A program made the position numbers and the translations under genes. The notes below the pieces were generated by a model that was given only the letters and a program-made list of their open reading frames with translations, did not search any database and was not told the origin of the DNA. From an uncultured Colwellia sp. (GTDB lineage: Bacteria; Pseudomonadota; Gammaproteobacteria; Enterobacterales; Alteromonadaceae): a stretch of DNA of 64,000 nucleotides. Location: the NCBI GenBank assembly GCA_913058395.1, contig CAJXQI010000012.1:1-64000 (forward strand). The letters run 5' to 3'. Each line of letters opens with the position of its first letter. Position 1 is the first letter of the stretch. Of the stretch, positions 6,142 through 51,055 are shown one piece after another.

Positions 6142-7119
6142 GTGATAACAAAACGCACGACATCTGAAATTATGCTGTTAGTTTTAAGTGCCTTATCAGC
6201 GCTATTGATTTCGCCGTTCGTCTACCTTCGTTACTCGGCAGGTGATTTTCTTGTTGCCATTATTGATGCGCTAATTATATTGGTTTTATTAGCTTTTTTT
6301 ATTTTTGTTTATATTACAAGGCAGGTTGATAAAGCAAAATTTCTTCTCGCCACTTTCCTTGCATTTGCTATTACCGCCGTGGTTATTATTCGAGGCGAAG
6401 GGCATTTGTATTGGCTATATCCTGCCATTATTGCTTTTTATTACATATTACCTGAGCGTCTAGCTGGCATTATTTGTCTAATTGCCATTAGCACTATTTC
6501 CATTCAAGTATATCCTGACGTTAACCTTGTCGACTTTGCGACCATCGTGATGTCGTTAGTATTAACTTCACTTTTCTCGTTTATGATATTTAGTAACTAT
6601 CGTAAAACGCATGAGCAATTGACGTTGTTAGCAACCATTGATCCGTTAACACTAAGTGGTAATCGTCGCGCGTTAGACCGAAAGCTTTCGGACGTTATTG
6701 CTGACCAAACACGACAACCGTCAACGGTGTCGTTGTTGTTACTAGATTTAGATCTATTTAAAAAAATTAATGATGAATATGGCCATGCGATTGGCGATCA
6801 AACGTTAGTCGAGGTAGCGTCCTTAATCACTGAAAATACTCGCTCGTTAGACGCCCTGTACCGTTATGGCGGTGAGGAATTTATCATTATGCCACTTAAA
6901 ATTAATTTGGCTGAAGCGATGGCTCTGGCAGAAAATTTGCGAATATTAGTCGAAAATCATAAATTTTCTAGTCATATAAAGTTAACTGTTTCGGTTGGTG
7001 TGGCAGAGTATCGTGCTGGTGAAACCGCAGAATCATGGATTCATCGTGCAGACTCTGCTTTGTATACGGCTAAAGATTTAGGTCGTAATCGAGTCGTTGC
7101 AGAAACAGAGGTTGAGTGA
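6142..7119 (+). CDS. Membrane-anchored diguanylate cyclase (GGDEF)
   Basis: The protein has about six membrane helices in residues 8-150 and a GGDEF domain from about 165 to the end. It should make cyclic di-GMP from GTP. The active-site loop is GGEEF at 243-247, preceded five residues earlier by RSLD (234-237), a standard RxxD product-inhibition site. The usual DPLTGLPNRR segment is altered to DPLTLSGNRR at 167-176. The start is a GTG with GGGAATAAG just upstream; no in-frame ATG is better placed. The membrane part does not match a sensor family I can name, so the signal is unknown. Confidence 0.9.
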   Translation: MITKRTTSEIMLLVLSALSALLISPFVYLRYSAGDFLVAIIDALIILVLLAFFIFVYITRQVDKAKFLLATFLAFAITAVVIIRGEGHLYWLYPAIIAFYYILPERLAGIICLIAISTISIQVYPDVNLVDFATIVMSLVLTSLFSFMIFSNYRKTHEQLTLLATIDPLTLSGNRRALDRKLSDVIADQTRQPSTVSLLLLDLDLFKKINDEYGHAIGDQTLVEVASLITENTRSLDALYRYGGEEFIIMPLKINLAEAMALAENLRILVENHKFSSHIKLTVSVGVAEYRAGETAESWIHRADSALYTAKDLGRNRVVAETEVE

Positions 7120-7152
7120 TTTATTCAAAATGTATGAGCTTTAAATTAAAGC

Positions 7153-7917
7153 TTATAAATCATATTTAGTTAATATTTTTTGGTAAGTACCCGATTTTTT
7201 TATTGCTGCTAATGCTTGTGATAATTGCTTAACCATATCATCAGAGGTTGATAACCCTGTTGCGATATTTAGCTCGTTAGGAAAATCCTTTATAGATAGG
7301 TAGGGAGTAACACCTTGCTCGTCAAAGCCAGCATCTTTTATATCCCTATCTAAAGCCATATAATTCGTTAGCACTAAATCTATTCTGTTGTTAAAGAGCA
7401 TTGCCCACATATGCTTACTGGTCACGCTTAATGATAAATTTTCATGTTCATGAAAACCATTATTAACTAAAAAATGTGCTGAATGATAACCTCGTATTGT
7501 ACCTACTATCAGTGGTTTTGCGTCATCTAATGATGATAACTTGATATCGTTTCGATCTTTAAGTCCTAAAAGTACCGCATAGCTTCGATAAGTCTCACCT
7601 ACCCATTTAAATTGTTTATCACGACTTGGTGTTTTCAATAATGAGAATAAGAAGGTATTTTGTTGTGTTTTTGCCGCTGCGTAACCACGCGCAAAAGGTT
7701 GTATTGCTATTATTCCAGGTAACTTTGCTTGCTCGAGTACTGCTTGAACAATTTCGACTAATGCGCCATCGGCTTGTCCATTGCTATTAATAAAATGGTA
7801 TGGAGGTAACTCCTCAGCGGTAAATATCAAAGGTTTTTGTACAGCAGAGCAGGTTTGTGCAAACATGCAACACAACAAGATAAATAGCTTTGGAATTAAT
7901 ATATTAAAAGCGTACAT
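7153..7917 (-). CDS. Periplasmic solute-binding protein, family 3, orphan
   Basis: The 254-residue protein has a signal peptide (LFILLCCMFAQTCSA, cleavage near residue 25) and the fold signature of amino-acid-type binding proteins: an N-terminal ELPPYHFIN, then VEIVQAVLEQA and PFARGYAAAK. No permease or ATPase gene is next to it, so it may be a sensor component or non-transport protein, as many such single proteins are in marine Alteromonadales. It converges with the diguanylate cyclase gene. No clear ribosome site precedes the ATG. Another protein of exactly the same length and family lies at 11767-12531. Confidence 0.8.
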   Translation of the reverse strand: MYAFNILIPKLFILLCCMFAQTCSAVQKPLIFTAEELPPYHFINSNGQADGALVEIVQAVLEQAKLPGIIAIQPFARGYAAAKTQQNTFLFSLLKTPSRDKQFKWVGETYRSYAVLLGLKDRNDIKLSSLDDAKPLIVGTIRGYHSAHFLVNNGFHEHENLSLSVTSKHMWAMLFNNRIDLVLTNYMALDRDIKDAGFDEQGVTPYLSIKDFPNELNIATGLSTSDDMVKQLSQALAAIKKSGTYQKILTKYDL

Positions 7918-8025
7918 AGGATAACTACAACAAACTGTTATTGTCGATAATATAACCTAGTCAATGGAACAGGTAAATCAGTATTAATGCTGGTGTAATG
8001 TAACTCTTTAATAAAAGAGAAAACA

Positions 8026-8049
8026 GCTAGGCTTGAGCATAAGCCTAGC
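8026..8049 (-). terminator. Terminator after the DUF1456 gene
   Basis: GCTAGGCTT and AAGCCTAGC form a perfect 9-bp stem with a 6-base loop. On the minus strand it is followed by a T-rich run (TGTTTTCTCTTTT), 10 bases past the DUF1456 stop. Confidence 0.75.
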
Positions 8050-8059
8050 GATGTATCAT

Positions 8060-8539
8060 CTATTCTTTAATTTCTTTTACCACTTCTCGGTATTGTAAGT
8101 GTAAGCCATTAAAGAATTTTATTAAGGTTTCATCATGACATGGACGAAAGTGCTTATGTTCTGGCTTTCTAAAAAAAGCACTAAGTTCATGCTTACTCAA
8201 CGTAAGTTCACCAGCAGCTAGTAAAGCAATGATGTCATCGGCTTTTAACGCTAAAGCTATTTTAATTTTATTAAAAATTATATTGTTATTAACTTCTTGA
8301 TTTAGCTGCGCTTGTGCGCCTTCTTTTTTACCTCGAAGCTCGATGATTAAACCATCAAGAAAGCTCGCAAGCGTATTATCTTGTACGCGAGAAAACTCAC
8401 TCTCACCATTTTTACGTAGGTAGTTTTCAATTTGCTCTGCTGTTTGTGCACATTCTGCATGTTGAAATATGGTCGATATTTTTTCGCTATTTAAAGCAAA
8501 AATATAACGAATGTGCTGTAAAGCTTCGTTGTTAGTCAT
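8060..8539 (-). CDS. DUF1456 (YehS-like) protein
   Basis: The 159-residue soluble protein shows the internal duplication of the DUF1456 family. The first half has NEALQHIRYIFALNSEKI...LASFLDGLIIELRG and the second half has NKIKIALALKADDIIALL...LIKFFNGLHLQYR. Members are widespread in gammaproteobacteria (YehS in E. coli) and have no established function. The start has a good AGGA site. It follows ubiB by 79 bases on the same strand and has its own terminator. Confidence 0.88.
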   Translation of the reverse strand: MTNNEALQHIRYIFALNSEKISTIFQHAECAQTAEQIENYLRKNGESEFSRVQDNTLASFLDGLIIELRGKKEGAQAQLNQEVNNNIIFNKIKIALALKADDIIALLAAGELTLSKHELSAFFRKPEHKHFRPCHDETLIKFFNGLHLQYREVVKEIKE

Positions 8540-8618
8540 GTATATTCCTGTTGAAAATACTCACTTAATACCTCAGTTTTTTTTCACTAGGCATTAGTAA
8601 ATATTTACTATGTATGAG

Positions 8619-10184
8619 TTAAGTAAAGGCAATGGTAAGGCAAATAGCTAATGTTGCTATCAGCGTTAACGTCACTACTTGCTTACTATGTTGATTTTGT
8701 TGCTGCTCTAGCTTTTTCAGCATCAGCAATTGTTGACGTTGAGCTTCCCGATTAGTTTTTAAGTAGTCATAAACTAAGTCAGGGATCTCAGGTAATTTTT
8801 CATTCCAAAAAGGTAGGTTATCTTTTACTTTTTTGTACACGGCTTTAACGCCCATTTGTTCTTTTACCCAGTTTTCTAAAAATGGCTTTGCGGTTTGCCA
8901 TAAATCGAGCTGCGGGTATAACTGACGCCCTAAGCCCTCAATATAAAGTAATGTTTTTTGTAGTAATACCAGTTGTGGCTGCACTTCCATATTGAAGCGA
9001 CGTGCAGTATTAAATAGGTTTACTAACACTTGCCCGAAGGATATTTCAGATAAAGGTTTGTTAAATATTGGTTCGCAAACGGTGCGAATGGCAAATTCAA
9101 ATTCATCAACACTGGTATCACTTGGCACCCAACCTGAATCAACGTGCAATTGTGCAACTTTACGGTAATCTCGATTGAAAAAGGCGACGAAATTTTCTGC
9201 CAAATAACGTTTATCTTCTCGATTCAATGTGCCGACAATACCGCAGTCGATGGCAATCCAAGTGGGATCATCTGGGTTAGTCGCATTAACAAAAACATTG
9301 CCAGGATGCATGTCAGCATGGAAAAAGCTGTCGCGAAATACTTGGGTAAAAAATACTTCAACCCCGCGCTCAGCGAGCAATTTCATATTAACGTTTTGGG
9401 CAACTAGGCTTTCAATTTCACCAACACCAACACCGTAAATACGTTCCATAACCATGACGTTTCTTGAACAATATTCACTATAAACCTCAGGTACATAAAG
9501 AACTTTGTCGCTTTCTCTACCTTGGGTAAAGTTACGCTTTAGTTGAATAGCATTTGCTGCTTCGCGATTTAAATCCAGTTCTTCTAAAATGGTTTTTTTG
9601 TATTCACCGACGACTTCAACTGGACGTAACCGCTTTCCGTCAGGTAGCCAACGAGCGACAATACCGGCAAATAGCGACATGACTTTAATATCAGCCAAGA
9701 TGGTTTTTTCAATGTTTGGACGCAGTACTTTTAATACCACTTCATGTTCTTCATCATTATGAAGCATTGTTGCGGTATGAACTTGCGCAATAGACGCTGA
9801 TGCTAAAGGGTTTAAGTCAAAGTCTTTAAAGTGTTGGTCAAAAACTTCTTGGCCCATGGCCGCAATAATAATTTGTTCTGCGCTTTCACCAGAAAATGCC
9901 GGCACTTTGTCTTGCAGTAACGCTAGTTCAATCGCAAAATCATCGGGTAATAAGTCACGACGTGTTGACAGCATTTGACCGAATTTAACAAATACAGGCC
10001 CCAGTGATTCAATGGCGATACGAAAACGTTCGGCTTTGTTTTTATCTTGATGTTTATTTCGCAACCAAAATAATGATGATCGGGCAATTTTTACATACCA
10101 TGGTAGGTATTTTTTCGGCACGAGTTCATCAAGGCCAAACTGCAAAAATGTTTTTACTATTTTGTATAAACGTTTGCTACTCAC
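8619..10184 (-). CDS. ubiB: Ubiquinone biosynthesis protein UbiB (atypical kinase)
   Basis: UbiB is an ABC1/ADCK-type kinase-like ATPase needed for ubiquinone synthesis, thought to act on lipid-like precursors at the inner membrane. The family's KxGQ motif is KFGQ at 67-70 ([19 protein letters not shown]), an alanine-rich nucleotide loop follows ([12 protein letters not shown]), and the catalytic region has HADMHPGN and a DCG-type metal motif (AIDCGIVG). A C-terminal hydrophobic helix at about 499-520 would anchor it. Its start overlaps the end of ubiJ by 8 bases, so translation is probably coupled. Length (521) is close to the usual 546. Confidence 0.97.
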
Positions 10185-10831: not shown

Positions 10832-11623
10832 CTAGAACTTATAGCCTTTATGCAGCGCTACAACGCCGCCAGTTAAGTCTTTGTAGCTTGTTTGCTCGAA
10901 GCCAGCATCGTCCATCATGCTTTTTAAGGTTTCTTGATCAGGATGCATGCGAATTGATTCCGCTAAATATTGATAGCTGTCGCCGTCATTTGCTACCAGT
11001 TCACCCATTTTCGGTAAGATATTGAATGAATAGAAGTCGTAGGCTTTATTAACTATGTCATGTTCTGGTTTAGAAAACTCTAATACCAATAAACGGCCGC
11101 CAGGTTTAAGTACACGATACATTGAGCGTAACGCCATATCTTTATCAGTAACGTTTCTTAAACCAAAGGCAATGGTGATTACGTCAAAAGTATTGTCTTC
11201 AAAAGGTAAGTACTGAGCATTTGCTTGCACGTATTCAATATTTTGCACTAAACCACGGTCACGCAACTTATCGCGACCGACATTAAGCATAGAGCTATTA
11301 ATATCAGCTAGAATGACTTTGCCTTCACGACCAACTAATTGGGAGAACTTTGCCGTTAAATCGCCAGTACCACCGGCTAAATCTAATACTTTATTACCTG
11401 GACGTACGCCACTGGCATCAATAGTGAAGCGTTTCCATAAACGGTGAACTCCAAAAGACATCAAATCATTCATTACATCATATTGTTGCGCTACGGAATG
11501 AAATACACCGGCGACTTTTGATTCTTTTTCATTTTTATCGACGGTTTGAAAACCAAAATGTGTGGTGTTTTCATCGCTATTAGCGTTATTGCTGTGATGG
11601 TTTTGATCGTGTGCTGACATCAT
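10832..11623 (-). CDS. ubiE: Ubiquinone/menaquinone C-methyltransferase UbiE
   Basis: UbiE methylates the quinone ring with S-adenosylmethionine in ubiquinone and menaquinone synthesis. The protein (263 residues, E. coli 251) has [23 protein letters not shown], typical of the family, the SAM loop [11 protein letters not shown], and [30 protein letters not shown]. The first 30 residues are an Asn/His-rich extension. The start is one of two consecutive ATG codons. First gene of the ubiE-ubiJ-ubiB operon. Confidence 0.97.
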
Positions 11624-11766
11624 GAGTTCACTATTAACTAAAATTAGCGATAGTTTACCGTATTTTCTTTGATTAATTAACCATTGAGATCAAGGTGGTA
11701 ATTATTAAGTGCGGTGATGTTTTAAATTATCGGTATTAGTGGCAAAAACTATGTTTTTCTATGTGA

Positions 11767-12531
11767 TTAGGGCTTAAACCATTTATCAGCGATGGTTTTT
11801 ATTTCACCATTAACTTGCAGTTTTGCGTACGCTTTTTTTATCTTGTTACGAATTCGTGGCGATGTTTCTAGACTTGCGGCTATGTATATTTCGTTTTCAA
11901 CTTGTGGAAATTCAAATATTTTAACTATATCAGTTCGCTCTAGTTGCGCTAATTTTAAACGCCAATTTAAAATAAGCTCATTACCTAGAAAGTACTGAGC
12001 TCGATGCTTTGTGACCAAGGCGATAGCTTGCTCTTTTGAGCGGGTGTAGATGAAATTTTTTTCGGTTAAATTTGTATATTTTTTTAACATAAGCTGGTGA
12101 TGATCATTGCGTGATACAGCAATTATTTCATCAGTAATCTCGTTAAGGGAGGTTAATGGTTGCTGATCGCTTTGATAACCCCATAAACTTGATTTAGTTT
12201 TACTTAATTTTATTAGCCAGTGGAACATCTTTTCACGTTCAGGCTTCCGCACCATTGAAAGAATGATAGTGTTAGGTTTTTTTTGCCCTAAGCTATACGC
12301 ACGCTCCCATGTCATCGGCATAATAGAATAGTCGATATGTGCCTGTTTTAGAGTTGTGCGCAGAATATCAACACTATAACCTTCAATGGGGCGCTTTGGG
12401 TTGTCATCAATAATTTGAAATGGTGGCATGTGTTCAGTAACCACCATTAAGCTCTCATTGCGTGCGGAAACGTTTTCTGAGAATAGTAAATAGAGTGATA
12501 TCGAAATGAAAAGGACTAAAAGACGAAGCAT
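11767..12531 (-). CDS. Periplasmic solute-binding protein, family 3, orphan
   Basis: The 254-residue protein has a signal peptide (LLVLFISISLYLLFSENVSA, cleavage near 23), then TEHMPPFQIIDDNP and GYSVDILRTTLKQA, the usual start of family 3 amino-acid binding proteins, and MTWERAYSLGQKKPNTIILSMVRKPERE. No transporter gene is adjacent. It is of the same length and general family as the protein encoded at 7153-7917, the two flanking the ubi operon, so they may be old paralogues. Ligand unknown. No strong ribosome site is visible. Confidence 0.78.
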   Translation of the reverse strand: MLRLLVLFISISLYLLFSENVSARNESLMVVTEHMPPFQIIDDNPKRPIEGYSVDILRTTLKQAHIDYSIMPMTWERAYSLGQKKPNTIILSMVRKPEREKMFHWLIKLSKTKSSLWGYQSDQQPLTSLNEITDEIIAVSRNDHHQLMLKKYTNLTEKNFIYTRSKEQAIALVTKHRAQYFLGNELILNWRLKLAQLERTDIVKIFEFPQVENEIYIAASLETSPRIRNKIKKAYAKLQVNGEIKTIADKWFKP

Positions 12532-12649
12532 GTAATTTTGATGTAAGAAGTTTTAGATAGCATAAATTATAACCGATTTGGTATTGGTGTTTTTTATATA
12601 ATTGTTACTACTTTGTAAAAAGTGGTACCAGCGTTACATGGGAGTTACA

Positions 12650-14749
12650 TTAGGCATTAGAGTATTTTTCACGGTTGGCTAACCATCGATTAATTAGGGC
12701 TTCAGCAACATCAGGATATTTTTTCCATATTAAATGAGCACTTTTTTGTACTTCAGGGATTAAGTGAGCATCGCGTTGTAAATCGGCTATCTTTAAATCA
12801 GCTAATCCAGTTTGCTTGGTACCCAGTAATTCACCAGGGCCTCTAATTTCTAAATCTTTTTGTGCAATAACAAAACCGTCGTTACTTTCTCGTAAAACTT
12901 TTAATCGTTTAGTTGCTGTTTTTGTTAAAGGTGCTTTATACATTAAAACACAATGAGAGGCGATTGAACCTCGCCCGACTCGGCCGCGTAATTGATGTAA
13001 CTGAGCAAGGCCAAGTCGTTCTGGATTTTCGATTACCATCAGGCTAGAGTTTGGCACATCAACCCCAACCTCAATAACGGTTGTAGCGACCAGTAAATCT
13101 AATTCAGCACGTTTAAACTCTTCCATTACCGCTTGTTTTTCTTCTGCTTTCATTCGGCCATGCACAAGACCAATTTTCAGCTCGGGTAATTGTGCTTGCA
13201 AATAAACGGCGGTATCTTCTGCCGCTTGGCATTGAAGTACTTCTGATTCTTCAATTAATGTACAAACCCAATAAGCTTGGCGATTGTCATTAATACAACC
13301 TTGGCGAATGCGTTCTACGACATTATCTCTTCGACTATCTGGTAAAGCGATAGTTTTTATTGGTGTACGACCTGGCGGTAATTCATCAATGACTGAGGTA
13401 TCAAGATCAGCATAGGCCGTCATTGCTAATGTGCGCGGAATCGGTGTTGCTGTCATGATTAATTGGTGAGGATAATTCCCTTGCCATGCACCCTTTTCAC
13501 GTAGAGAAAGCCGTTGGTGAACACCAAATTTATGTTGCTCATCAATGATGATTAATGCCAATTTATTAAAGACTACTTGCTCCTGAAACAGAGCATGGGT
13601 GCCGATAACCATTTGCATATTACCGCTGGCGATATGCTCTAGTGCCTGTCGACGAGCCTTCGCTTTAGTTTTACCAGCCAACCAGCCGACGGTAATTGAT
13701 AATGGCTCAAACCATTTGCCAAAGTTTATCGCATGTTGTTCGGCTAGAATTTCAGTCGGTGCCATTAATGCCACCTGAAAGCCTTGACCTATAGCCGTTA
13801 TCGCAGCCAGTGCAGCCACTAAGGTTTTACCTGAGCCGACATCACCTTGTACTAGGCGCATCATCGGCATATTTTTTTGCAAATCTTGCTGAATTTCTTT
13901 TGTTACTCTTGTTTGAGCACCAGTGGGCGAAAACGGCAGGGCATCAAGAAACTTATCATTGAGCGCTTTATCTGGTTGCAACGCCACCGCAGGATGTTGA
14001 TCGCTAGAGGCACGTAGTTTAAGCATACTTAGATTGTGCGCTAATAATTCTTCTTTAATTAGCCTAAGTTGGGCAGGGTGCTTACCTTCTTCTATCAAAG
14101 TAACTGAGGTATCAGGTGGCGGGCGATGTATTAACGCTAGTGCGTCTGATAAACCATATTGTTCAAGGCAAATTTCTTGCGGGAGTAATTCTTCCACATG
14201 ACCACGTTGTAAGCGTATCAGGGCTTGTTCGGTTAAATTGCGTAATGAAATTTGCCGTAAGCCATCGGTTGTTGAATAAACCGGTGTTAAGGTTTCTTCA
14301 ACCGCTGTTAGTGCCTGGTCTTGCTCTAAAGGTTTATATTCAGGATGAACAATTTCAAAGCCGCGCATACCGCGGTTAATTTCGCCGTAACAACGGATGC
14401 TTAAACCAACAGTTAAGCTATTTTTTTGGCTAGCAGAAAAATGAAAAAACCTAAGGTTAATGCTGCCAGTACCATCATTGATGGTGACTAACATCATTCT
14501 TCGCTTCCCCTGTATTATTTGGTTTTCGGTGACTTCGCCAATAATATTGGTGAATATGCCGGGCATAAGGTCACGAATAGAGGTTATTCGGGTGCGATCT
14601 TCATAACGCAACGGAAGATGAAAGAGTAAATCTTGTAGGCTGTTCAAACCTACTTTTTCTAGCTTAGCCGCCATGCCGGGCCCAACGCCTTTTAATGTAG
14701 TAACAGGAATTTGGGCTAAATTGGTAAGAGCTTCCATTTGACGAGGCAC
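12650..14749 (-). CDS. recG: ATP-dependent DNA helicase RecG
   Basis: RecG remodels stalled replication forks and branched DNA. The protein (699 residues, E. coli 693) has the N-terminal wedge region beginning TTLKGVGPGMAAKLEKVG, Walker A GDVGSGKT near 300, the DEQH box (IIDEQHKFG) near 400, and QLRGRVGRG near 600. The start is a GTG with AAGGA upstream; an ATG four codons later is an alternative. It is the last gene of the spoT-ridA-trmH-recG cluster, 25 bases after trmH. Confidence 0.97.
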   Translation of the reverse strand: MPRQMEALTNLAQIPVTTLKGVGPGMAAKLEKVGLNSLQDLLFHLPLRYEDRTRITSIRDLMPGIFTNIIGEVTENQIIQGKRRMMLVTINDGTGSINLRFFHFSASQKNSLTVGLSIRCYGEINRGMRGFEIVHPEYKPLEQDQALTAVEETLTPVYSTTDGLRQISLRNLTEQALIRLQRGHVEELLPQEICLEQYGLSDALALIHRPPPDTSVTLIEEGKHPAQLRLIKEELLAHNLSMLKLRASSDQHPAVALQPDKALNDKFLDALPFSPTGAQTRVTKEIQQDLQKNMPMMRLVQGDVGSGKTLVAALAAITAIGQGFQVALMAPTEILAEQHAINFGKWFEPLSITVGWLAGKTKAKARRQALEHIASGNMQMVIGTHALFQEQVVFNKLALIIIDEQHKFGVHQRLSLREKGAWQGNYPHQLIMTATPIPRTLAMTAYADLDTSVIDELPPGRTPIKTIALPDSRRDNVVERIRQGCINDNRQAYWVCTLIEESEVLQCQAAEDTAVYLQAQLPELKIGLVHGRMKAEEKQAVMEEFKRAELDLLVATTVIEVGVDVPNSSLMVIENPERLGLAQLHQLRGRVGRGSIASHCVLMYKAPLTKTATKRLKVLRESNDGFVIAQKDLEIRGPGELLGTKQTGLADLKIADLQRDAHLIPEVQKSAHLIWKKYPDVAEALINRWLANREKYSNA

Positions 14750-41956: not shown

Positions 41957-41984
41957 TTCCTTCGTTAGCTACTTAATAGCAATG

Positions 41985-42013
41985 AAATACCGCGCACTGT
42001 CGCGGTATTTTTA
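41985..42013 (+). terminator. Terminator after the OmpA-family lipoprotein gene
   Basis: AAATACCGCG pairs with CGCGGTATTT around loop CACTGT, then TTATTTT. Confidence 0.9.
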
Positions 42014-42060: not shown

Positions 42061-42100
42061 TGTTCGCACACCCCGCTTTGCGAACACATGTCTGTTCGCA
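42061..42100 (+). promoter_or_regulatory. Three alternating TGTTCGCA half-sites: probable activator binding region
   Basis: TGTTCGCA (42061-42068), its exact complement TGCGAACA (42079-42086) and a third TGTTCGCA (42093-42100) alternate in orientation with 10- and 6-base spacers. They lie 48-87 bases upstream of the -24 element of a sigma-54 promoter, which is where NtrC-type activators bind. The likely binder is the activator encoded at 48396-49742 in the same cluster, an inference from context. Confidence 0.8.
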
Positions 42101-42145
42101 CAAAATAAAAAACAAACTTATATATAAATATCAATAGATTAAAGT

Positions 42146-42163
42146 TTGGCATCGTTTGTGCAA
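42146..42163 (+). promoter_or_regulatory. Sigma-54 (-24/-12) promoter of the ABC-transporter operon
   Basis: TTGGCAT-N6-TGCAA places GG at 42148-42149 and GC at 42160-42161, exactly ten bases between, matching the sigma-54 consensus TGGCAC-N5-TTGC closely. The start of transcription would be near 42173, giving a leader of about 42 bases before the ATG at 42215. An NtrC-type activator is encoded downstream. Confidence 0.8.
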
Positions 42164-42214
42164 TATCACCAGTACATCAATACCCATATGCTAAAAAGTT
42201 TCAGGGAAAAGAAA

Positions 42215-43489
42215 ATGTTAAAAGATACTTCTGGTCAAGATGTACAGATCAGCCAAACCGGCAAAAAAAAATCATTAATGATGAAAGTGACAGCAGTTGT
42301 TTTATTGATAGCGGCTATCGGCATTTTCGTTGTGCCGAAATTTAATAACATGTTTTCATCGGATATGGCGATTTCAAAAGAGCGCTTACGTTTTGCCGTG
42401 GTAGAAAAAGGTAACTTACAACGTGATATTGGCGTACAAGGGCGCATTGTTGCAGCTAATAGTCCGACACTCTATGCAACGGCGCCAGGTATTGTCAGTT
42501 TGTTTGTTAAAGCAGGTGATGCGGTAAGTGAAAACCAGAAGTTAGCTGAGGTTGATAGCCCACAATTAAAAAACCAATACGAACAAGAACTAGCAACGTT
42601 AGAGCAATTAGAACTAGCCGTTGGCCGTCAGCGCATTGAAATGAAAACAACCCAGTTAAACAATCAGCAAACGATAGAAATGTCAGGGGTTAATTTAGAA
42701 GCAGCAAAAGTAAATAAAGATCGTGCAGTCACCAGCATTAAAGACTCACTGATCAGTAAAAAAGAATACGAAGAGAAAGTTGCTGAATTTAAACGCGCGA
42801 GTCTATCGCATGAACATGCAAAACAAAGTTTTGACTTGCAAAAAGAAAGTATGGAATTTGAATTAAAAACCCGCCAGTCACAACTTAATCGCCAGCAGTT
42901 TGTTGTTAATGACCTACAACGACAAGTGAACGAGCTTACTTTGTTTGCGCCAACTGACGGCATAATTGGTAGCGTCAACATTCGTGAAAAAGACAGTGTC
43001 GCTAGTAATACCTCATTAATTACCGTTATCGATTTAAGCGCCTTTGAAGTGGAAGTGAATATTCCTGAAAGTTTTGCCGATGACCTTGGTGTTGGCTTAG
43101 CGTCAGAAATTAGTTTTAACGGTGAAAAGCATGATGGCCAATTAGTGGCTATTTCACCTGAAGTCACCAATGGGCAAGTGGTTGGACGTTTGCGCTTTAA
43201 TGCGGAAACTGTAGCAAGTTTGCGTCAAAACCAGCGTGTTAGCGCGCGCATCTTAATTGAATCAAAAGAAAATATTTTAAAAGTTCGCCGTGGCGCTTTC
43301 GTTGAAAGTGGTGGTGGGCGCATTATTTATCGAGTAAATGACAGCAATGCAACACGTCAAAAAGTTACCTTAGGTGCTCGTAGTATTGGCGAAATAGAAG
43401 TGGTTTCAGGCTTAAAAGCTGGTGATGAAATTGTTATCTCAAGTATTGATGTTTTCAATAATCGCGAACAAATCTATCTGACTAATTAG
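42215..43489 (+). CDS. MacA/HlyD-type periplasmic adaptor of an ABC transporter
   Basis: The adaptor has one N-terminal membrane anchor (about 22-42), then a biotinyl-lipoyl-like half (SPTLYATAPGIVSLFVKAGDAVSENQKLAEVDSP), a helical hairpin (about 110-220), the second lipoyl half (LFAPTDGIIGSVNIREKDSV) and a beta-barrel domain. It would link the inner-membrane transporter to an outer-membrane channel. The open frame extends left to a TTG at 42146, but that lies inside the sigma-54 promoter. The ATG at 42215 has AGGGAAAAG upstream and gives 424 residues. First gene of the operon. Confidence 0.92.
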   Translation: MLKDTSGQDVQISQTGKKKSLMMKVTAVVLLIAAIGIFVVPKFNNMFSSDMAISKERLRFAVVEKGNLQRDIGVQGRIVAANSPTLYATAPGIVSLFVKAGDAVSENQKLAEVDSPQLKNQYEQELATLEQLELAVGRQRIEMKTTQLNNQQTIEMSGVNLEAAKVNKDRAVTSIKDSLISKKEYEEKVAEFKRASLSHEHAKQSFDLQKESMEFELKTRQSQLNRQQFVVNDLQRQVNELTLFAPTDGIIGSVNIREKDSVASNTSLITVIDLSAFEVEVNIPESFADDLGVGLASEISFNGEKHDGQLVAISPEVTNGQVVGRLRFNAETVASLRQNQRVSARILIESKENILKVRRGAFVESGGGRIIYRVNDSNATRQKVTLGARSIGEIEVVSGLKAGDEIVISSIDVFNNREQIYLTN

Positions 43490-43500
43490 GAGAAAAGCAA

Positions 43501-44202
43501 ATGTTAAGAATGGAAAATGTCAGCAAAATATATCGTACAGATTTAGTAGAAACGCATGCCTTACGTAAGGTGGATTTACACATAAAGAGTGGTGAATTTG
43601 TATCAGTTACTGGCCCTTCGGGCTCAGGGAAAACTACATTTTTGAACTTGGCTGGTGCATTAGAAACCTTCGAAGAAGGTGATTACTTTCTAGATGGCCA
43701 TAACGTAAAAGGACTCAGTGATGACAAACTCTCAGAAATTCGAAATCAAAAAATCGGATTTATTTTTCAAAGCTTTAATCTTTTGCCTGATTTACCCCTC
43801 TTTGACAATGTTGATGTTCCACTACGTTACCGTGGGATGAGCGCAAAAGAACGCAAAGAACGTATTGAACATGCACTAGAAACTGTCGGTTTAGCATCAC
43901 GTATGCAGCATTTGCCGACCCAGCTTTCTGGTGGTCAACAACAACGTGTTGCTATTGCCCGTGCCATTGCGGGTGATCCGTTATTTTTATTAGCGGATGA
44001 ACCGACCGGTAATTTGGATTCATTAATGGCGCAGCAAGTAATGGAATTACTTGAAGATATTAATAGCAAGGGTACGACCATTATTATGGTGACGCATGAT
44101 GATCAATTAGCCCGCCGAGCTCATCGCAATATCCAAATTTTTGATGGCCAAGTCAGTGATATTGAAAAATCAGTCGCTGATGATGTTATTCGTAGCGCAT
44201 AG
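43501..44202 (+). CDS. ABC transporter ATPase, MacB/LolD type
   Basis: The 233-residue ATPase has Walker A GPSGSGKT near 39-46, Q-loop FQSFNLLPDL, signature LSGGQQQRVAIARAI and Walker B LLADEPTGN, all in the MacB/LolD subfamily pattern. It powers the two FtsX-type permeases that follow at 9- and 10-base spacings. Such transporters push substrate across or out of the envelope by mechanical transmission and not through a membrane channel. GGAGAAAAG precedes the ATG. Confidence 0.95.
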   Translation: MLRMENVSKIYRTDLVETHALRKVDLHIKSGEFVSVTGPSGSGKTTFLNLAGALETFEEGDYFLDGHNVKGLSDDKLSEIRNQKIGFIFQSFNLLPDLPLFDNVDVPLRYRGMSAKERKERIEHALETVGLASRMQHLPTQLSGGQQQRVAIARAIAGDPLFLLADEPTGNLDSLMAQQVMELLEDINSKGTTIIMVTHDDQLARRAHRNIQIFDGQVSDIEKSVADDVIRSA

Positions 44203-44211
44203 GAGTTAATT

Positions 44212-45570
44212 ATGTTCAGTTATAATTTTCAGTTGGCGCTGAAGAGTTTAAAAGAACGCCCTGCGCTAACCTTATTAACCATTCTTGCGATCGCGACAGG
44301 TTTAGGTTTATACACCACGGTAAAAACCATGAGCTACCAAAGTAGCCAAGTGCCGCTAGCCCATAAAAGTAAAAATATTTTTTTACTGCAAATGGATAAC
44401 CGTGAAATCACCGCAGATGCAGTAGAGCATCAAGCGCGTATGGTTGATACCACTTACAAAGATACCTTGAACCTAATGCAACTGGAAATGCCAGGGGTTA
44501 AGCAAAGCTTTAATTGGTCAACTTATGGTATTTTGAATGTTGAAGATGAAAACATTAATCCACTACAAACCACAGCAGCGGTTGTGAATAGCAGCTTTTT
44601 TACCATGTTTGAAACCCCGTTCCTTTATGGCAATGGTTGGGACAAAACGACGGAAGAAAGTGGTGAAGCGGTTATCATTATAAGTAAGTTAATGAATGAT
44701 AAGTTATTTGGTGGTCGTAATAGTGTTGGTGAAAGTGTGCGTATCAACACCCATGTGTTGAAAATTATTGGCGTATTAGATACTTGGTATTTAAGCAGTA
44801 AATTTTATAACCGTAGTTTTTGGCCGGGTTATCCTGATAACTTCTTTATTCCTTATACCTTTGCAATGGACAACAACCTACCGCGCAGTGCAGGCTTTGA
44901 CTGTTGGGCTGCTAATGCTGATATCTCACGTTCATTTCGTACTGAGAATAAAGATCGCTTAATTAACTCTGAATGTGCCTGGGTAACTTTTTGGGCGGAA
45001 GTGCCTGAAGCAAAAGTTGCTGACTATCGTCAACAAATAATGAGCTATATGGAAAGTGAGCAAACGCTAGGACGCTTTCCTCGTGAGTTAGCAATGTATT
45101 TAACGAACCTCAATGACCAATATAACTATGTTAATGGTCGTAATCAGTTTCTTAATACCTTTTCAGTACTAGCAACATTATTCTTTGCGGTATGTTTACT
45201 AAATGCAGTCGGTATTTTACTGGCCAAATTTATGCGTCGAAAAAAGGAAGTAAGTTTACGTCGAGCCTTAGGAGCTAAAAAGAAAACTATCATTATGCAG
45301 CACTTACTTGAAGTGGTTATTATTGGTTTATTAGGTGGTTTACTCGGTATTGTTATTTCTTATTTTGGCTTGCAAGGCATGATGAGTATTCGTCTTTATT
45401 CATCGGATTACACGGTACGCATTGAAGATATTCAGCCACTATTTCAATTGAATTGGGTGATGATAGCTAATGCATTTGTCACTGGCATTATTTGTACTAT
45501 CGTTGCCAGTATTTATCCGATTTGGCGTTTGTGTAACATTCCTCCCGCTAGCCAACTAAAATCACAATAA
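44212..45570 (+). CDS. FtsX/MacB-type ABC transporter permease 1
   Basis: The 452-residue protein has one N-terminal helix (about 17-36), a large periplasmic MacB_PCD domain (about 40-310) and three C-terminal helices (about 315-345, 370-395, 415-440) with the FtsX motif RRKKEVSLRRALGAKKKTI before the second. Together with the second permease it would form the membrane part of the transporter. The periplasmic domain contains four cysteines or fewer and no obvious catalytic motif. Ribosome site AGGAG. Confidence 0.93.
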   Translation: MFSYNFQLALKSLKERPALTLLTILAIATGLGLYTTVKTMSYQSSQVPLAHKSKNIFLLQMDNREITADAVEHQARMVDTTYKDTLNLMQLEMPGVKQSFNWSTYGILNVEDENINPLQTTAAVVNSSFFTMFETPFLYGNGWDKTTEESGEAVIIISKLMNDKLFGGRNSVGESVRINTHVLKIIGVLDTWYLSSKFYNRSFWPGYPDNFFIPYTFAMDNNLPRSAGFDCWAANADISRSFRTENKDRLINSECAWVTFWAEVPEAKVADYRQQIMSYMESEQTLGRFPRELAMYLTNLNDQYNYVNGRNQFLNTFSVLATLFFAVCLLNAVGILLAKFMRRKKEVSLRRALGAKKKTIIMQHLLEVVIIGLLGGLLGIVISYFGLQGMMSIRLYSSDYTVRIEDIQPLFQLNWVMIANAFVTGIICTIVASIYPIWRLCNIPPASQLKSQ

Positions 45571-45580
45571 GGAGAAAAAC

Positions 45581-46798
45581 ATGGATATTAAACCAATTTT
45601 TCTTGGCCTAAAGCAAAATAAATTTATGGCGATGCTGATGATTATTCAGATTGCATTTACCATGGGCGTGCTAAGCAGTTCAGTACTGGTTGCAACCACA
45701 ACATTACAAGAGTGGAATAAACTTTCAGGCATTCCGCATGAGGATATTGTGCGGATTTCACCGGAGTTTTTCGACGATAGCCAAGATGTTGGCCAAGCAA
45801 TGTTCAATGACCTTAAACGTGTTAAAGAGATTCCATCAGTTATTAATGCTGCGCCATCAAATGCCGTGCCTTTTACTGCGGAGAATATGATTGATGTCTA
45901 CTTGGCAACAGAGGAAGACGCACAGGGTTTTAAAACCGTTGTATTTGAATCAGATGAACAAATCATTGATGTTTTACAGCTGTCATTGGTTGATGGACGG
46001 TTAATCACTGCTAGCGATGTGGTTAAAGGCGATATTGAGTCGACGCCACAAAGTGCCGCTGAAGTAATGATCAGTCAAGATATGGCGCAGGTGTTATTTG
46101 GCGATGACTCTGCCATTGGCAAAACTATCTGGTTAGCAAAAAATGCTGATCCAGTAAAAGTCATTGGTGTTTATAGTAACTTTATGACTGGTGAGCGTTT
46201 GAATGGTCGCGGTAAGTCATATCAGTCGATTATTCGCCCTCAAGTTAAGTGGAGTCAAACTCAACAACCGCATTACTTAATGCGTGTGGAACAAGGTACA
46301 GCGGTTGCATTACTAGAAGATATTATCGACGTATTCTATTTAGAGCGTGGCCGTTATATCAATTCCAGTGAGTTGTTAAAGCGTACACAAAAGCGTATGT
46401 ATGATGGTCGTGGCAGCCGCGCCTTAACCTTTTTAGTGTTAAGTGTTGTTTTACTGATAATTACAGGTCTAGGTATTACCGGCTTAACCGCTTTTCAAGT
46501 AACACAAAAGCGTAAGCAAATAGGAACACGTCGCGCATTAGGTGCTAAGAAAAGTGACATTATGCGTTACTTTTTAACTGAAAATAGTATTTTAACCTTG
46601 ATTGGATTAGTGATTGGTGTCGCGGTAACTTTATCTATAACTTTTGAGTTATCCGAGCAAGCAGGTCAAAACTTTTTCAACCTCAGTGTCTTGCTAATGA
46701 CAGCACTTTTACTTTGGGTCGTGAATATTTTAGCTGTTTGGTTTCCGGCTAAGCGTGCCGCTAATATTGCTCCTGCTATTGTGACACGTAGTGCGTAG
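45581..46798 (+). CDS. FtsX/MacB-type ABC transporter permease 2
   Basis: The 405-residue protein repeats the plan of the first permease: an N-terminal helix (about 17-37), a periplasmic domain (about 45-275) and three C-terminal helices with KRKQIGTRRALGAKKSDIMRYF between the first two. It probably pairs with permease 1 as a heterodimer. AAGGAGAAA precedes the ATG by 5 bases. Confidence 0.93.
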   Translation: MDIKPIFLGLKQNKFMAMLMIIQIAFTMGVLSSSVLVATTTLQEWNKLSGIPHEDIVRISPEFFDDSQDVGQAMFNDLKRVKEIPSVINAAPSNAVPFTAENMIDVYLATEEDAQGFKTVVFESDEQIIDVLQLSLVDGRLITASDVVKGDIESTPQSAAEVMISQDMAQVLFGDDSAIGKTIWLAKNADPVKVIGVYSNFMTGERLNGRGKSYQSIIRPQVKWSQTQQPHYLMRVEQGTAVALLEDIIDVFYLERGRYINSSELLKRTQKRMYDGRGSRALTFLVLSVVLLIITGLGITGLTAFQVTQKRKQIGTRRALGAKKSDIMRYFLTENSILTLIGLVIGVAVTLSITFELSEQAGQNFFNLSVLLMTALLLWVVNILAVWFPAKRAANIAPAIVTRSA

Positions 46799-46811: not shown

Positions 46812-46847
46812 CAGCATAATATTATAAAAAATCATAATATTATGCTG
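46812..46847 (+). other. Perfect 14-bp inverted repeat after the permease genes
   Basis: CAGCATAATATTAT (46812-46825) and its exact complement (46834-46847) enclose an 8-base loop. No T tract follows, so it is not a typical terminator. It may be a weak terminator, a processing hairpin that separates levels of transporter and downstream genes, or a binding site. Confidence 0.7.
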
Positions 46848-46874: not shown

Positions 46875-48332
46875 ATGAAAGTCTCAGGTATCGTACTATT
46901 GTCAGTAATGAGTTTTTTGAGCGTGGCAAAGCAAGGTTTACTTGTCAAAAATGTCACCTTAATATCGCCAGAGCTTGCAATGGCGCAGGAGAATCGCAAT
47001 GTACTCATTGTTGATGATCGTATTATCGATAATAATGTACGGATTGTGGAGGAAGAAAAATACCGCCATGTTATCGATGGTAGTGGCCAGTTTCTCGTGC
47101 CGGGCATCATGGACAGCCACGTTCATGTATCTTCTATACCTGGCATGGGATTTGGTGGAGAAAAGCATGTAGTTGAAAACACTGAACTGGCAATGCAGTA
47201 CTTTACCCAACAGCCAAAAAGTTTTTTGTACCATGGTGTGACGCATGTTGTTGATCCGAATCCTGGAAAGCACTGGTCAGAATTTGTTAGCGGCGAAATA
47301 CATCCAGACTATTTTCGTTGTGAAGTGGTCACTTCAAAAGAGACTTTTCCTTATATCGAAAAAACGTCAGATATTGCAGATAAAATTTTCTCGTATTTAG
47401 TGCAAGAAAATACTGCCATAGATGACAAAAACTCACCAGAAAATCTTATTATAAAAATAGCTGAATCAGGTGCAGTGTGCATTAAACTGTATTTTGAAAA
47501 TGGATATGGAGACAGTAACCAGTGGCCATTATTGAGTCGTGCAACACTCAAGCGAATTAAAGCCGCAGCAGTAAAGAATAACCTGATGATTTTAGCGCAC
47601 GCCAACGCCGTGGATATGTATCAAGCGGCGCTTGATGCTAAGGCTGATGTACTTGCTCATGGATTATGGAACTGGGGTAAATATAGTCGAAATCAGTACT
47701 TGCCCAATGAGATGCTGATGCTACTGAATGAAGTTAATAGTAAAGGCATTGGGTTTATGGCGACTCAGCGAGTTATTTCGGGACTGGGGGAGGTGATGTT
47801 ACCTGAAACTAAATACAATTCAGCGTTTTTAAAAACTACACCTAAAGCATTACTAAACTGGTATAAAACACCAGCGGCACAATGGTTTACTAAGGAATTG
47901 ATTACAGGATTTGATGGTTTATCGTCAGAAAAAATAGCAGAAATATTTCTTTATGGCCGTACGAGGAAAAATCAGCAGGTAATCACTTATCTTGATAGTG
48001 TCCATCATCCAATGCTTATAGCGTCTGATTTTCCAGGAAGCCCAAGCTATGCCAATCAACCTGGGTTAACCACATATCAGGAAATGCAAATGCTGGCGCA
48101 AGCTGGAATTAGTCTAAAAGGGGTATTGGCAGCGGCAACTATTAATAACGCGAAACAATTTAATTTAGCAGATGACTATGGCAGCGTAGAAAATGGTAAG
48201 GTAGCGAACTTATTGTTACTAAATGAAAACCCGTTGAAAACTATTGAGGCTTGGGACGCTATTGATAAAATTATATTACGTGGAAAAGTTCATGCACGTG
48301 ATGATTTGAGAGCAAATAAGCCTGTACATTAA
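46875..48332 (+). CDS. Exported metal-dependent amidohydrolase
   Basis: The 485-residue protein is an amidohydrolase-superfamily enzyme with a full set of metal ligands: H82 and H84 (MDSHVHV), a probable carboxylated lysine K204 (GAVCIKLYFE), H242 (LAHANAV), H262 (LAHGLWNW) and D385 (IASDFPG). The first 18 residues are a signal-peptide-like hydrophobic segment ending SVA, so it is probably periplasmic. It should hydrolyse a cyclic amide, ester or peptide; the substrate is unknown. A strong AGGAAAGGAAG site precedes the ATG. It lies between the transporter genes and their presumed regulators. Confidence 0.85.
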   Translation: MKVSGIVLLSVMSFLSVAKQGLLVKNVTLISPELAMAQENRNVLIVDDRIIDNNVRIVEEEKYRHVIDGSGQFLVPGIMDSHVHVSSIPGMGFGGEKHVVENTELAMQYFTQQPKSFLYHGVTHVVDPNPGKHWSEFVSGEIHPDYFRCEVVTSKETFPYIEKTSDIADKIFSYLVQENTAIDDKNSPENLIIKIAESGAVCIKLYFENGYGDSNQWPLLSRATLKRIKAAAVKNNLMILAHANAVDMYQAALDAKADVLAHGLWNWGKYSRNQYLPNEMLMLLNEVNSKGIGFMATQRVISGLGEVMLPETKYNSAFLKTTPKALLNWYKTPAAQWFTKELITGFDGLSSEKIAEIFLYGRTRKNQQVITYLDSVHHPMLIASDFPGSPSYANQPGLTTYQEMQMLAQAGISLKGVLAAATINNAKQFNLADDYGSVENGKVANLLLLNENPLKTIEAWDAIDKIILRGKVHARDDLRANKPVH

Positions 48333-48395: not shown

Positions 48396-49742
48396 ATGAA
48401 AGCTCGAATACTCGTTATTGACGACAATCCAGATATTGCTCACGCACTAAAGGTATTATTTACCATTAATCAGCTGGATTGTGATCATTGCTTAACACCA
48501 GAAGCAGGGCTTTTAGCGCTTGATAACTCGCACTACGATCTAGTAATTCAAGACATGAATTTCACACAAGATACGACTTCTGGTGAGGAAGGTATTGCGT
48601 TATTTAACGAAATTCGTCGCCGATTTTCGGACTTACCAATAATTTTGATGACCGCATGGACGCATTTAGAAACCGCTGTTGATTTAGTAAAATCTGGTGC
48701 CAGTGACTATATTTCAAAACCTTGGGATGATGACAAACTTATCATCACGGTTAATAACCTGATCGAGCTTAGTGAGTTACAACAAGCGCATCGTAAGAGT
48801 GCCTTAAAGCATAATCGTCAACAACGAGAGCTGGCACAACAATATGATTTATGTGGCATTCGCTACCAAAGTGATGCCATGTTTAATTTATTGCAAATCA
48901 CCACACAAGTTGCACACGCCGATGTTTCGGTATTAATTACCGGCCCTAATGGGGCAGGTAAAGAAAAAATTGCTGAAATTGTACAAGCCAATTCAAGTTG
49001 TCACCAAGGCCCATTTATTAAAGTAAATGTTGGCGCACTTTCACCTGAGTTGATGGCGGCCGAGTTATTTGGTGCTGAAGCAGGCTCTTACACTGGCATT
49101 ACGAAACGTCGCATTGGTCGTTTTGAATTAGCTGATAACGGAACGCTATTTCTTGATGAAATTGGTAACTTGTCATTAGATGGACAAGCAAAACTACTAC
49201 GAGTGCTTGAGACGGGTGAATTTGAACGCATTGGCGGTAGTGAAACGATAAAAGTTAATGTACGTATTATTAGTGCCACCAATGCCGATATTAAAGGCGC
49301 AATAGCCAAAGGCGATTTTAGAGAAGATTTATATTATCGTTTAAATGTTATAGAACTCCCTTTGTTGCCATTAAATGAGCGAAAAGCCGATATTCTGCCT
49401 TTGGCAGAGCATTTTTTAGGTGAAGCTTTTCAATTGACAGAGCAAGCATGCTTGACGTTGAAACATTACGCTTGGCCTGGCAATATCCGAGAATTGAAAA
49501 ATGTCATGCAAAGAGCGTCATTACTCGCTCGTGATAAAATTATTGATGAAAAAATACTGGCCTTAAATGTGCAGTTGCCTGAGTCAACTTCTTCATCGGC
49601 TAATACTGAAGAGCTCACCGCAGAAGATATTCAGCAGGCGATTAGCGATGCCAGTGGTGTTATTTCTGAAGCGGCAAAATTATTAGGCCTTAGTCGTTCT
49701 GCGCTTTACCGCCGCATGAAAAAGTTTGAGATAGTAGGTTAA
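48396..49742 (+). CDS. NtrC-type sigma-54-dependent response regulator
   Basis: The 448-residue protein has a receiver domain (D53 in LVIQDMNF), a central AAA+ domain with Walker A GPNGAGKEK near 190 and Walker B GTLFLDEIGN, and a C-terminal Fis-type helix-turn-helix (ISEAAKLLGLSRSALYRRMKKF). It should activate sigma-54 promoters, most likely the one at 42146. The sigma-54-contacting GAFTGA loop is GSYTGI (230-235), an unusual variant. The last base of its stop is the first base of the kinase gene, so both are cotranslated. Confidence 0.93.
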   Translation: MKARILVIDDNPDIAHALKVLFTINQLDCDHCLTPEAGLLALDNSHYDLVIQDMNFTQDTTSGEEGIALFNEIRRRFSDLPIILMTAWTHLETAVDLVKSGASDYISKPWDDDKLIITVNNLIELSELQQAHRKSALKHNRQQRELAQQYDLCGIRYQSDAMFNLLQITTQVAHADVSVLITGPNGAGKEKIAEIVQANSSCHQGPFIKVNVGALSPELMAAELFGAEAGSYTGITKRRIGRFELADNGTLFLDEIGNLSLDGQAKLLRVLETGEFERIGGSETIKVNVRIISATNADIKGAIAKGDFREDLYYRLNVIELPLLPLNERKADILPLAEHFLGEAFQLTEQACLTLKHYAWPGNIRELKNVMQRASLLARDKIIDEKILALNVQLPESTSSSANTEELTAEDIQQAISDASGVISEAAKLLGLSRSALYRRMKKFEIVG

Positions 49743-51055
49743 TGCTAAAAAGGTCTTTATTCCTACGCTTATATGCAGCCACAGCCATAGTGTTGCTGTT
49801 TTATGGTGTTGTACTACTTGCTTTACCCAAAGAAGTTAGCTTTATCAGTATTGAAGTCATGCTGGTTAGTGCTGGCTTCTTGTTGGCGTTGTTACTGGTA
49901 TCTAAGTGGTGCTTAGCGCCATTAATGAAAACACTATCAGCAATTGATAACGGCATTGATGCGTTTAAAGATAACGATTTTAGTCTCACTATTCATAACC
50001 AAAATTACAGTGAAGTATCGAGCCTCGTAAAAATTTATAATGAGTTAGCAACTGTACTGCGTAATGAGCGTATGGATATTTTTCAACGTGAGCTGCTACT
50101 CGACACTGTTATTCAAAGTACCCCCGTGGCAATGGTATTGGTGAATAGTAATGATAAAGTGGTGTATAGCAATTTAGCTGCAAAAGAAATGTTTTGTCAG
50201 AGTAGAAAATTAGAGGGCGGAGACTTTACGGCACTTTTGACTAACCTGACACCAGTATTGCAAACTGCAACTCTGGCGCGCGATGAAGGTTTAGTTACTG
50301 ATTTACAAGACGAACAAGCTTTGGTTTATAACATTAATTGCCAACAGTTTATGCTCAATGGTCGAAAGCATTTATTATATTTATATAAAAATATGACCAG
50401 TGAAATATCTCGCAAAGAAACTGATATGTGGAAGCAAGTTATACGTTTAATTAGCCATGAATTAAACAACTCGTTAGCGCCTATTTCATCATTAACACGT
50501 TCAGCTCAAAAAATTATTACGCAACCTGAACATAGCCATATGCTTCATGATGTATTGGAAACCATTGGTAATCGCGCCAGTCATTTACATGGCTTTATTG
50601 AGCAATATGCTAGTTTTTCTCGCTTACCAAAACCCAATCTTAACGCTGTAACATTAAAAACTTTTTATCAACAAATTAAAACCTTAATTGGGGTAAGTTG
50701 CCGTTTTGACGTGGTGCGAGAGCAAGCAATATTCGATGCTGGCCAAATTGAACAAGTGATCATTAATTTAGTGAAAAATGCTAAAGAATCAGGCTCCGAA
50801 TTAACGGATGTTAGTTTTGAAATGAAACAGCAAAGCAGGCAATTAATTTTTAATGTTTTTGACCGTGGTACAGGGTTAAGCGCAAAACAGCAACAGCAAG
50901 CATTACTGCCATTTTTTACCACTAAGCCAACAGGCACTGGAGTTGGCTTAGCCTTATGTAATGAAATAGTTATTGGTCACCAAGGTAAACTTAGGCTCTA
51001 TAATCGTCAGCAAGGCGGCTTGTGTGTTAGCTTTAGTTTGGAGCTGACAGACTAG
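49742..51055 (+). CDS. Sensor histidine kinase with minimal periplasmic loop
   Basis: The 437-residue kinase has two membrane helices (about 9-27 and 37-56) joined by about nine residues, a HAMP-like linker, a PAS domain (about 125-225), the phospho-acceptor H239 (LISHELNNSLAPIS) and a C-terminal ATPase domain (NLVKNAKES, GTGVGLALC). With so little outside the membrane it cannot bind a ligand there itself, and may read the state of the FtsX-type transporter, as Bce-type kinases do in Firmicutes (inference). It overlaps the regulator gene by one base. Confidence 0.92.
   Translation: MLKRSLFLRLYAATAIVLLFYGVVLLALPKEVSFISIEVMLVSAGFLLALLLVSKWCLAPLMKTLSAIDNGIDAFKDNDFSLTIHNQNYSEVSSLVKIYNELATVLRNERMDIFQRELLLDTVIQSTPVAMVLVNSNDKVVYSNLAAKEMFCQSRKLEGGDFTALLTNLTPVLQTATLARDEGLVTDLQDEQALVYNINCQQFMLNGRKHLLYLYKNMTSEISRKETDMWKQVIRLISHELNNSLAPISSLTRSAQKIITQPEHSHMLHDVLETIGNRASHLHGFIEQYASFSRLPKPNLNAVTLKTFYQQIKTLIGVSCRFDVVREQAIFDAGQIEQVIINLVKNAKESGSELTDVSFEMKQQSRQLIFNVFDRGTGLSAKQQQQALLPFFTTKPTGTGVGLALCNEIVIGHQGKLRLYNRQQGGLCVSFSLELTD

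Follow-up and report, generated by a model that had tools for sequence, protein, structure and literature searches.

NtrC-family proteins activate sigma-54 promoters such as nifH and Pu from an upstream enhancer, with IHF placed between enhancer and promoter. Bce modules, in turn, combine an OmpR-type regulator and a single ten-helix permease with a kinase that has no extracytoplasmic sensor domain. In the BceRS-BceAB systems of Firmicutes, the two-component system controls the ABC transporter genes and senses through the transporter (PMC6978683). The sigma-54 activators of Desulfovibrio vulgaris are described with genes lying beside their target promoters and with regulons that mostly comprise one to four operons, and a gel shift is reported for DVU2956 on a motif with three half-sites (PMC4641369). 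The strings TGTCCG, TGTTCG, ABC transporter and IHF are absent from the main text of that source. Duplicated EnvZ/OmpR paralogues of alpha-proteobacteria are described as pathways insulated by a few residues (PMC9208753).

The locus analyzed here lies in a 64-kb window of a marine bacterium's genome; by window we mean the whole stretch of DNA that was examined. It resembles nifH and Pu in its upstream half-sites, its IHF consensus match, its -24/-12 element and its activator of receiver, AAA+ and Fis-type domains, and it departs from them in that TGTTCG-type half-sites are set on an 11-bp grid and vary in orientation, where the former have one fixed palindrome. As in few-target activators of the DVU2956 kind, the regulator gene adjoins its probable target and three half-sites are present; since an adjoining activator, few targets and three half-sites are all known from D. 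vulgaris, the promoter is a fresh case of a known mechanism. The variation lies in the module itself, in the half-site change that matches the regulator's, and in the pairs of modules found side by side. The EnvZ/OmpR work concerns kinase-regulator specificity; here the regulator-DNA contact differs, and by eye the kinase-regulator residues seemingly do too. Among the papers listed by literature searches, none describes the exporter module as judged by title and abstract opening, and in a literature text search TGTCCGCGGACA, the palindrome discussed below, occurs in one unrelated paper.

We hold it highly probable that this locus holds the enhancer and the sigma-54 promoter through which a self-contained exporter module is controlled by its own regulator, helped by IHF, and that this regulator has a single target operon (Table 1). 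In this scheme the kinase would phosphorylate the NtrC-type regulator, whose Fis-type helix would bind the TGTTCGCA half-sites 73-112 bases before the start. The bound regulator would assemble into an AAA+ ring, IHF would bend the DNA at its site, and contact with the sigma-54 polymerase at the -24/-12 element would lead to rpoN-dependent opening at about 42173. The transcript would cover the adaptor, the ATPase and the two permeases, and probably the regulator and kinase as well, which would create a positive loop around a regulator with one target operon only.

Table 1. Features of the exporter locus (positions in the window)
Feature	Position	Strand	Remark
Terminator-like hairpin of preceding OmpA-type gene (gene name by eye)	41984..42011	+	11-pair stem, then T-rich tail
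Half-site 1 TGTTCGCA	42061..42068	+	exact match; TGTTCG invariant in 6-sequence alignment
Half-site 2 TGTTCGCA, inverted	42079..42086	-	exact match; 6-sequence alignment
Half-site 3 TGTTCGCA	42093..42100	+	exact match; 6-sequence alignment
IHF consensus match TATCAATAGATTA, predicted DNA-bending site	42129..42141	+	exact match, between half-sites and promoter
Sigma-54 -24/-12 element TTGGCATCGTTTGTGCA	42146..42162	+	GG/GC spacing; kept in relatives
Shine-Dalgarno-like AGGGA	42203..42207	+	before ATG 42215
Periplasmic adaptor (MacA/HlyD-like membrane fusion protein)	42215..43489	+	
ABC ATPase (MacB/LolD/FtsE type)	43501..44202	+	best model DarD, below cut-off
Permease 1, MacB_PCD + FtsX	44212..45570	+	
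Permease 2, MacB_PCD + FtsX	45581..46798	+	
Amidohydrolase	46875..48332	+	
NtrC-family response regulator	48396..49742	+	receiver, AAA+ sigma-54 activator, Fis-type HTH
Ser435 codon, recognition helix of regulator	49698..49700	+	
Lys442 codon of regulator	49719..49721	+	
Sensor histidine kinase	49742..51055	+	two adjacent membrane helices, almost no periplasmic loop (hydropathy)

Inspection of the region before the adaptor gene bears out what an initial annotation had described, namely three half-sites in alternating orientation, a -24/-12 element with a 10-base GG-GC spacing and an expected start near 42173. The half-sites are found in plus, minus and plus orientation, and the recount again places GG at 42148-42149 and GC at 42160-42161 with exactly 10 bases between them, in an element of the TGGC-N8-TGC type; the start at 42173 is a prediction counted from this element. 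The distance from the last half-site (ending at 42100) to GG is 47 bases, close to the 48 given before. The three copies of TGTTCGCA are the only ones in the window and all belong to this cluster; their total is at the chance level for the 8-mer (mean 2.88), so that the clustering, not the frequency, is the point. The triplet occurs once in the genome's 4.39 Mb, and the inverted pair with its 10-bp spacer has no second match in the window at up to 3 mismatches or in the genome at up to 2. One candidate second target, an everted pair with 2 mismatches at C20:32048, was rejected as terminator-like; it follows an RND-pump-like gene (name by eye). Upstream of the half-sites, the hairpin of the preceding gene sets the operon apart from it.

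Matches in the window to the -24/-12 element with up to 2 mismatches number 21 against 27 expected, so the match alone is no better than chance and the case rests on conservation. The IHF consensus used, WATCAANNNNTTR, is matched 18 times against 7.3 expected; it is common in AT-rich DNA of this window, and only a conserved place lends weight to the site before the promoter, which the earlier description did not include. One rpoN gene is present in the genome (C8; 507 bits, the cut-off being 277), as is an IHF alpha gene. The longer open frame from 42146 had been set aside as the adaptor start, rightly by our analysis: its TTG sits in the -24 element, the frame is not kept, and AGGGA precedes the ATG at 42215. 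The sequence GGGAAAAGAAAATG around this Shine-Dalgarno-like element is common to the window and its two nearest relatives (L002, L003), where the promoter-to-ATG distance is 69 (window), 68 and 70 bases, respectively, so that the reading frame between promoter and ATG is not conserved.

Conservation of the half-sites before orthologous operons, a check that had been proposed with the original description, was then assessed in relatives collected by a scan with the regulator. The best 80 of 115 loci were used; 63 of them and the window provided 64 scored adaptor upstream regions, and the other 17 had no adaptor with usable upstream sequence (L004, L010, L018, L040, L044, L061, L070, L071 and L073-L081). 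The expected conservation was found in 63 of the 64 regions, which have at least 3 half-sites TGT[TC]CG within 150 bp before the -24. Together the 64 regions hold 277 half-sites, against an average of 9.55 over 200 shuffles, none of which exceeds 22. As controls, 8600 further 150-bp stretches from these loci, mostly coding DNA, were counted, and 3 of them contain at least 3 half-sites. The exception, L020, has no half-site within 150 bp and two TGTCCG copies at a better promoter match about 390 bases before its adaptor; its half-site state was assigned by hand. When six relatives are aligned, columns average 66% identity, and the invariant ones cluster in the three half-sites, in TTGGCA and TGC of the -24/-12 element and in the CAAT within the IHF site; others are scattered outside these.

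Positions and letters of the promoter are less uniform across the wider set. The IHF and -12 statistics draw on 104 regions, with L020 left out. An IHF match with up to 1 mismatch stands 17 bases before the -24 T in 8 of 13 regions of the TGTTCG type and anywhere in 48 bases in 11 of 13 (21% in shuffles); for the TGTCCG type the latter count is 56 of 91, in varying places (14% in shuffles). The -12 GC of sigma-54 promoters is usually near-invariant. Among TGTCCG-type promoters, 52 of 91 keep GC; GT stands there in 32, of which 26 are from Shewanella, and 7 have something else. Each promoter here is the best-scoring match near the adaptor, and some match was therefore bound to turn up. Such imperfect -12 elements mean that the variant is tolerated, or else that not all of these promoters are strong or correctly located. 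Examples of a -12 GT promoter before the adaptor are found in Shewanella, for instance at L028, L029 and L041.

The half-site comes in two types: the window and its group have TGTTCG, the remaining relatives TGTCCG. We compared the type with the recognition helix of the adjoining regulator. To the 63 loci and the window, 47 regions were added from 54 further operon regions (L094-L100, L130-L176) after 7 had been dropped for the same lack of an adaptor with usable upstream sequence (L097, L137, L138, L140, L141, L172, L175). The resulting 111 became 110 on exclusion of L069, with its cut regulator, and 105 once identical regulators were merged. Across these 105 distinct regulators, Gln goes with TGTCCG in 92 and Ser with TGTTCG in 13, without exception. 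The TGTTCG-type helix reads SRSALYRRMK (GRSALYRRMK in L008, L133 and L134), and the TGTCCG type has RQ where the former has RS. Residue 442 is Lys in 13 of 13 TGTTCG-type regulators and E, D, Q, T, A, N or S in the 92 of the TGTCCG type. In eight TGTCCG-type regions there is, in addition, one TGTTCG copy. On a regulator tree built from the first 385 residues, which excludes the HTH, the half-site switch is one change (FastTree, SH-like support 96). A repeated origin of the switch, which would have amounted to statistical proof, was not found, and the agreement between helix and site is one matched event rather than repeated evidence; other regulator residues changed on the same branch. Regulators L070 and L071, more distant and likewise with Ser in the helix, stand in different surroundings and lack a TGT[TC]CG array; they were left aside.

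The distribution of the palindrome TGTCCGCGGACA follows that of the regulator. It is present in 27 of 98 family genomes. A regulator match at E of at most 1e-120 divides the 98 into 38 with and 60 without the regulator, and the palindrome is in 27 of the former and 0 of the latter; a reversed control pattern is found in 13 of 98 (3 of 38 and 10 of 60, respectively). Of the palindrome's 28 places, 27 stand ahead of operons of this family: 25 precede the adaptor within a fetched operon region, and the other 2, in fragmented genomes, are on a separate contig and again precede an adaptor gene. The remaining place (G419 C19) is within a coding region. The 11 regulator genomes lacking TGTCCGCGGACA consist of two in which only a TGTTCG-type regulator was matched (G000, G457), eight with spaced or altered arrays, and G446, which was not scored. 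In the six genomes that hold modules of both types, TGTCCGCGGACA occurs once each. An alternating TGTTCG triplet, with some spacing allowed, appears once in 5 of 8 genomes (these six with G000 and G457), always at the TGTTCG-type operon; it is absent from G399, G462 and G406, where the arrays are laid out otherwise. A palindrome confined to genomes with the regulator, and standing before such operons at all but one of its places, indicates that the own regulator very probably binds these half-sites and serves this operon alone. Binding by the activator, which the initial annotation had put forward as inference, thus gains support from this distribution and from the helix-site agreement in 105 of 105.

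Genomes with two modules provide a further view of this pairing. At least 2 regulator matches occur in 10 of the 98 family genomes, and six of these (G414, G445, G399, G441, G462 and G406, in that order below) each provide one TGTTCG-type and one TGTCCG-type module that could be scored. Counted over the 150 bp preceding the promoter, the TGTTCG operons carry 3, 3, 3, 4, 3 and 5 TGTTCG and 0 TGTCCG, and the partner operons carry 4, 3, 4, 4, 4 and 4 TGTCCG and 0 TGTTCG. The paired regulators are 49-60% identical and the paired kinases 37-41%. By eye, the residues after the phosphorylated His and in the first receiver helix differ between types alike in all six pairs, and these are positions that we take to be kinase-regulator contacts. 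The other genomes are G413, with two TGTCCG-type modules; G395 and G439, with two Gln-type regulators each and no scored upstream region; and G446, whose fetched copies were not scorable (its L107 lacks fetched upstream sequence).

That each operon of a pair carries its own half-site suggests that half-site and regulator changed together, letting sister systems share a cell without crosstalk. A broader account is tentative, and we regard it as somewhat more likely to fail than to hold in full. By this account a single paired change in helix and half-site (Gln to Ser, accompanied by Lys seven positions later, and TGTCCG to TGTTCG) would have insulated a duplicated exporter module, with kinase-regulator contacts and transporter also diverged and both modules working in one cell; the TGTTCG-type regulator would read single half-sites, one per helical turn, in either orientation; and a sensor-less kinase would be driven by its own exporter, as a sigma-54 counterpart of Bce modules. 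The exporter module gains a likely dedicated regulator, with a single target and the DNA letters that it probably reads. The paired difference of base and residue, with six genomes holding both versions, forms a small natural system on the avoidance of crosstalk by duplicated sigma-54 regulators, and the promoter is a possible reporter for finding the inducing signal.

The same observations bear on who reads the half-sites. Another sigma-54 activator of the genome could bind them while the own regulator acts elsewhere, and a loose first look does yield 77 candidates for the regulator protein in the genome, which fits several activators of the family. We judge this very unlikely, given that the palindrome keeps to regulator genomes, that gene order ties regulator to operon in relatives, that half-site letter and helix residue agree throughout, and that each operon of the six dual-type genomes has only its own half-site. 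Still less plausible is an operon read mainly from a sigma-70 promoter, with the sigma-54 element minor or decayed. The chance expectation of -24/-12 matches of such quality and the imperfect -12 of several relatives would fit that reading, but a sigma-70 scan found no plus-strand site between 41296 and 42635, and TTGGCA and TGC are kept in the six relatives amid changed surroundings.

Regarding the repeats as a hairpin, terminator or mobile repeat instead of protein-binding sites strikes us as barely credible. Folding is conceivable for the everted pair TGCGAACA-6-TGTTCGCA, and the sole similar place in the genome (up to 2 mismatches), at C20:32048, has the look of a terminator. Here, however, the repeats precede the predicted start with no T run after them, and relatives keep their sequence and position, not their pairing, with orientation varying as far as direct repeats in L136 and L012.

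That variation also qualifies the array geometry. Nine of 13 TGTTCG-type regions (including L008 and L134) begin forward-reverse-forward, and four carry direct repeats instead, mostly at 11-bp steps; the alternating orientation noted originally thus stands for the window and falls as an essential feature. Upstream of its adaptor L136 has five direct TGTTCG repeats at exactly 11-bp steps, about one per helical turn, and L012 has three. Forward TGTTCG half-sites lie near -53, -64, -75, -86, -97 and -108 from the -24 T, with 33 of 33 within 2 bases, on a grid that was picked after seeing the data and in regions that are related. The TGTCCG type favours the abutting palindrome, which accounts for 61 of 109 neighbouring inverted pairs.

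The order of genes likewise agrees with the first description, which had placed an NtrC-type activator and its kinase downstream of the transporter genes in the same direction; both follow the amidohydrolase. The regulator has the receiver, sigma-54 activator AAA+ and Fis-type HTH domains of the NtrC family; among solved HTH sequences even the closest, such as FleQ, match it weakly. Further instances of the order adaptor-ATPase-permease-permease-regulator-kinase are found in Gamma- and Betaproteobacteria, among others in Colwellia, Paraglaciecola, Bowmanella, Pseudoalteromonas, Shewanella, Parashewanella, Pseudoxanthomonas and Undibacterium. At E of at most 1e-120 the regulator is found in the 38 family genomes noted above and in 8 of 369 genomes drawn from the class. 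Adaptor, ATPase and MacB-type permeases are shared with MacAB and DarBCD, and DarD is the best-scoring ATPase model (NCBIfam); unlike MacAB/DarBCD, the window's module has two separate permeases, and unlike DarBCD it scores below the NCBIfam cut-offs (DarD 270 against 375, DarC 73 against 450, DarB 20 against 700). The cargo is perhaps peptide-like compounds, judging by family only.

Among the best 80 of 115 loci, the amidohydrolase insert is found only in the window and L002 (at least 80 bits). Between permease 2 and this gene, at 46812-46847, lies a perfect inverted repeat, 14 bp long and AT-rich, that lacks a clear T tail and may uncouple or attenuate the downstream genes. With amidohydrolase and hairpin standing between permease and regulator, the regulator and kinase may have their own promoter in this genome. 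L020 (Burkholderiales) has a 1115-aa frame between permease 2 and regulator at 6499-9846, the start of which resembles an amino-acid-binding protein by eye; this locus stops about 320 bases past the regulator. In L014 (4007-14804) the module lies, by eye, between flhB-like and flhA-like genes of a flagellar cluster.

The kinases of the module resemble those of Bce systems in having no extracytoplasmic sensor domain, in a setting unlike Bce of NtrC-type regulator, sigma-54, adaptor and two MacB/FtsX permeases. Hydropathy gives two adjacent membrane helices with nearly no outside loop, the second helix being uncalled in a few. The best kinase model is AtoS, far below its cut-off. By analogy with BceAB-BceS, sensing through the FtsX-type exporter next door is a fair guess. 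Of 58 kinases measured, 57 have the first motif after the membrane beginning no later than residue 106 (3 of 61 were unmatched by the motif). In L068 it begins at 155, and this kinase (11564-13150) is the sole measured one with a long proline/serine-rich stretch between two predicted membrane helices.
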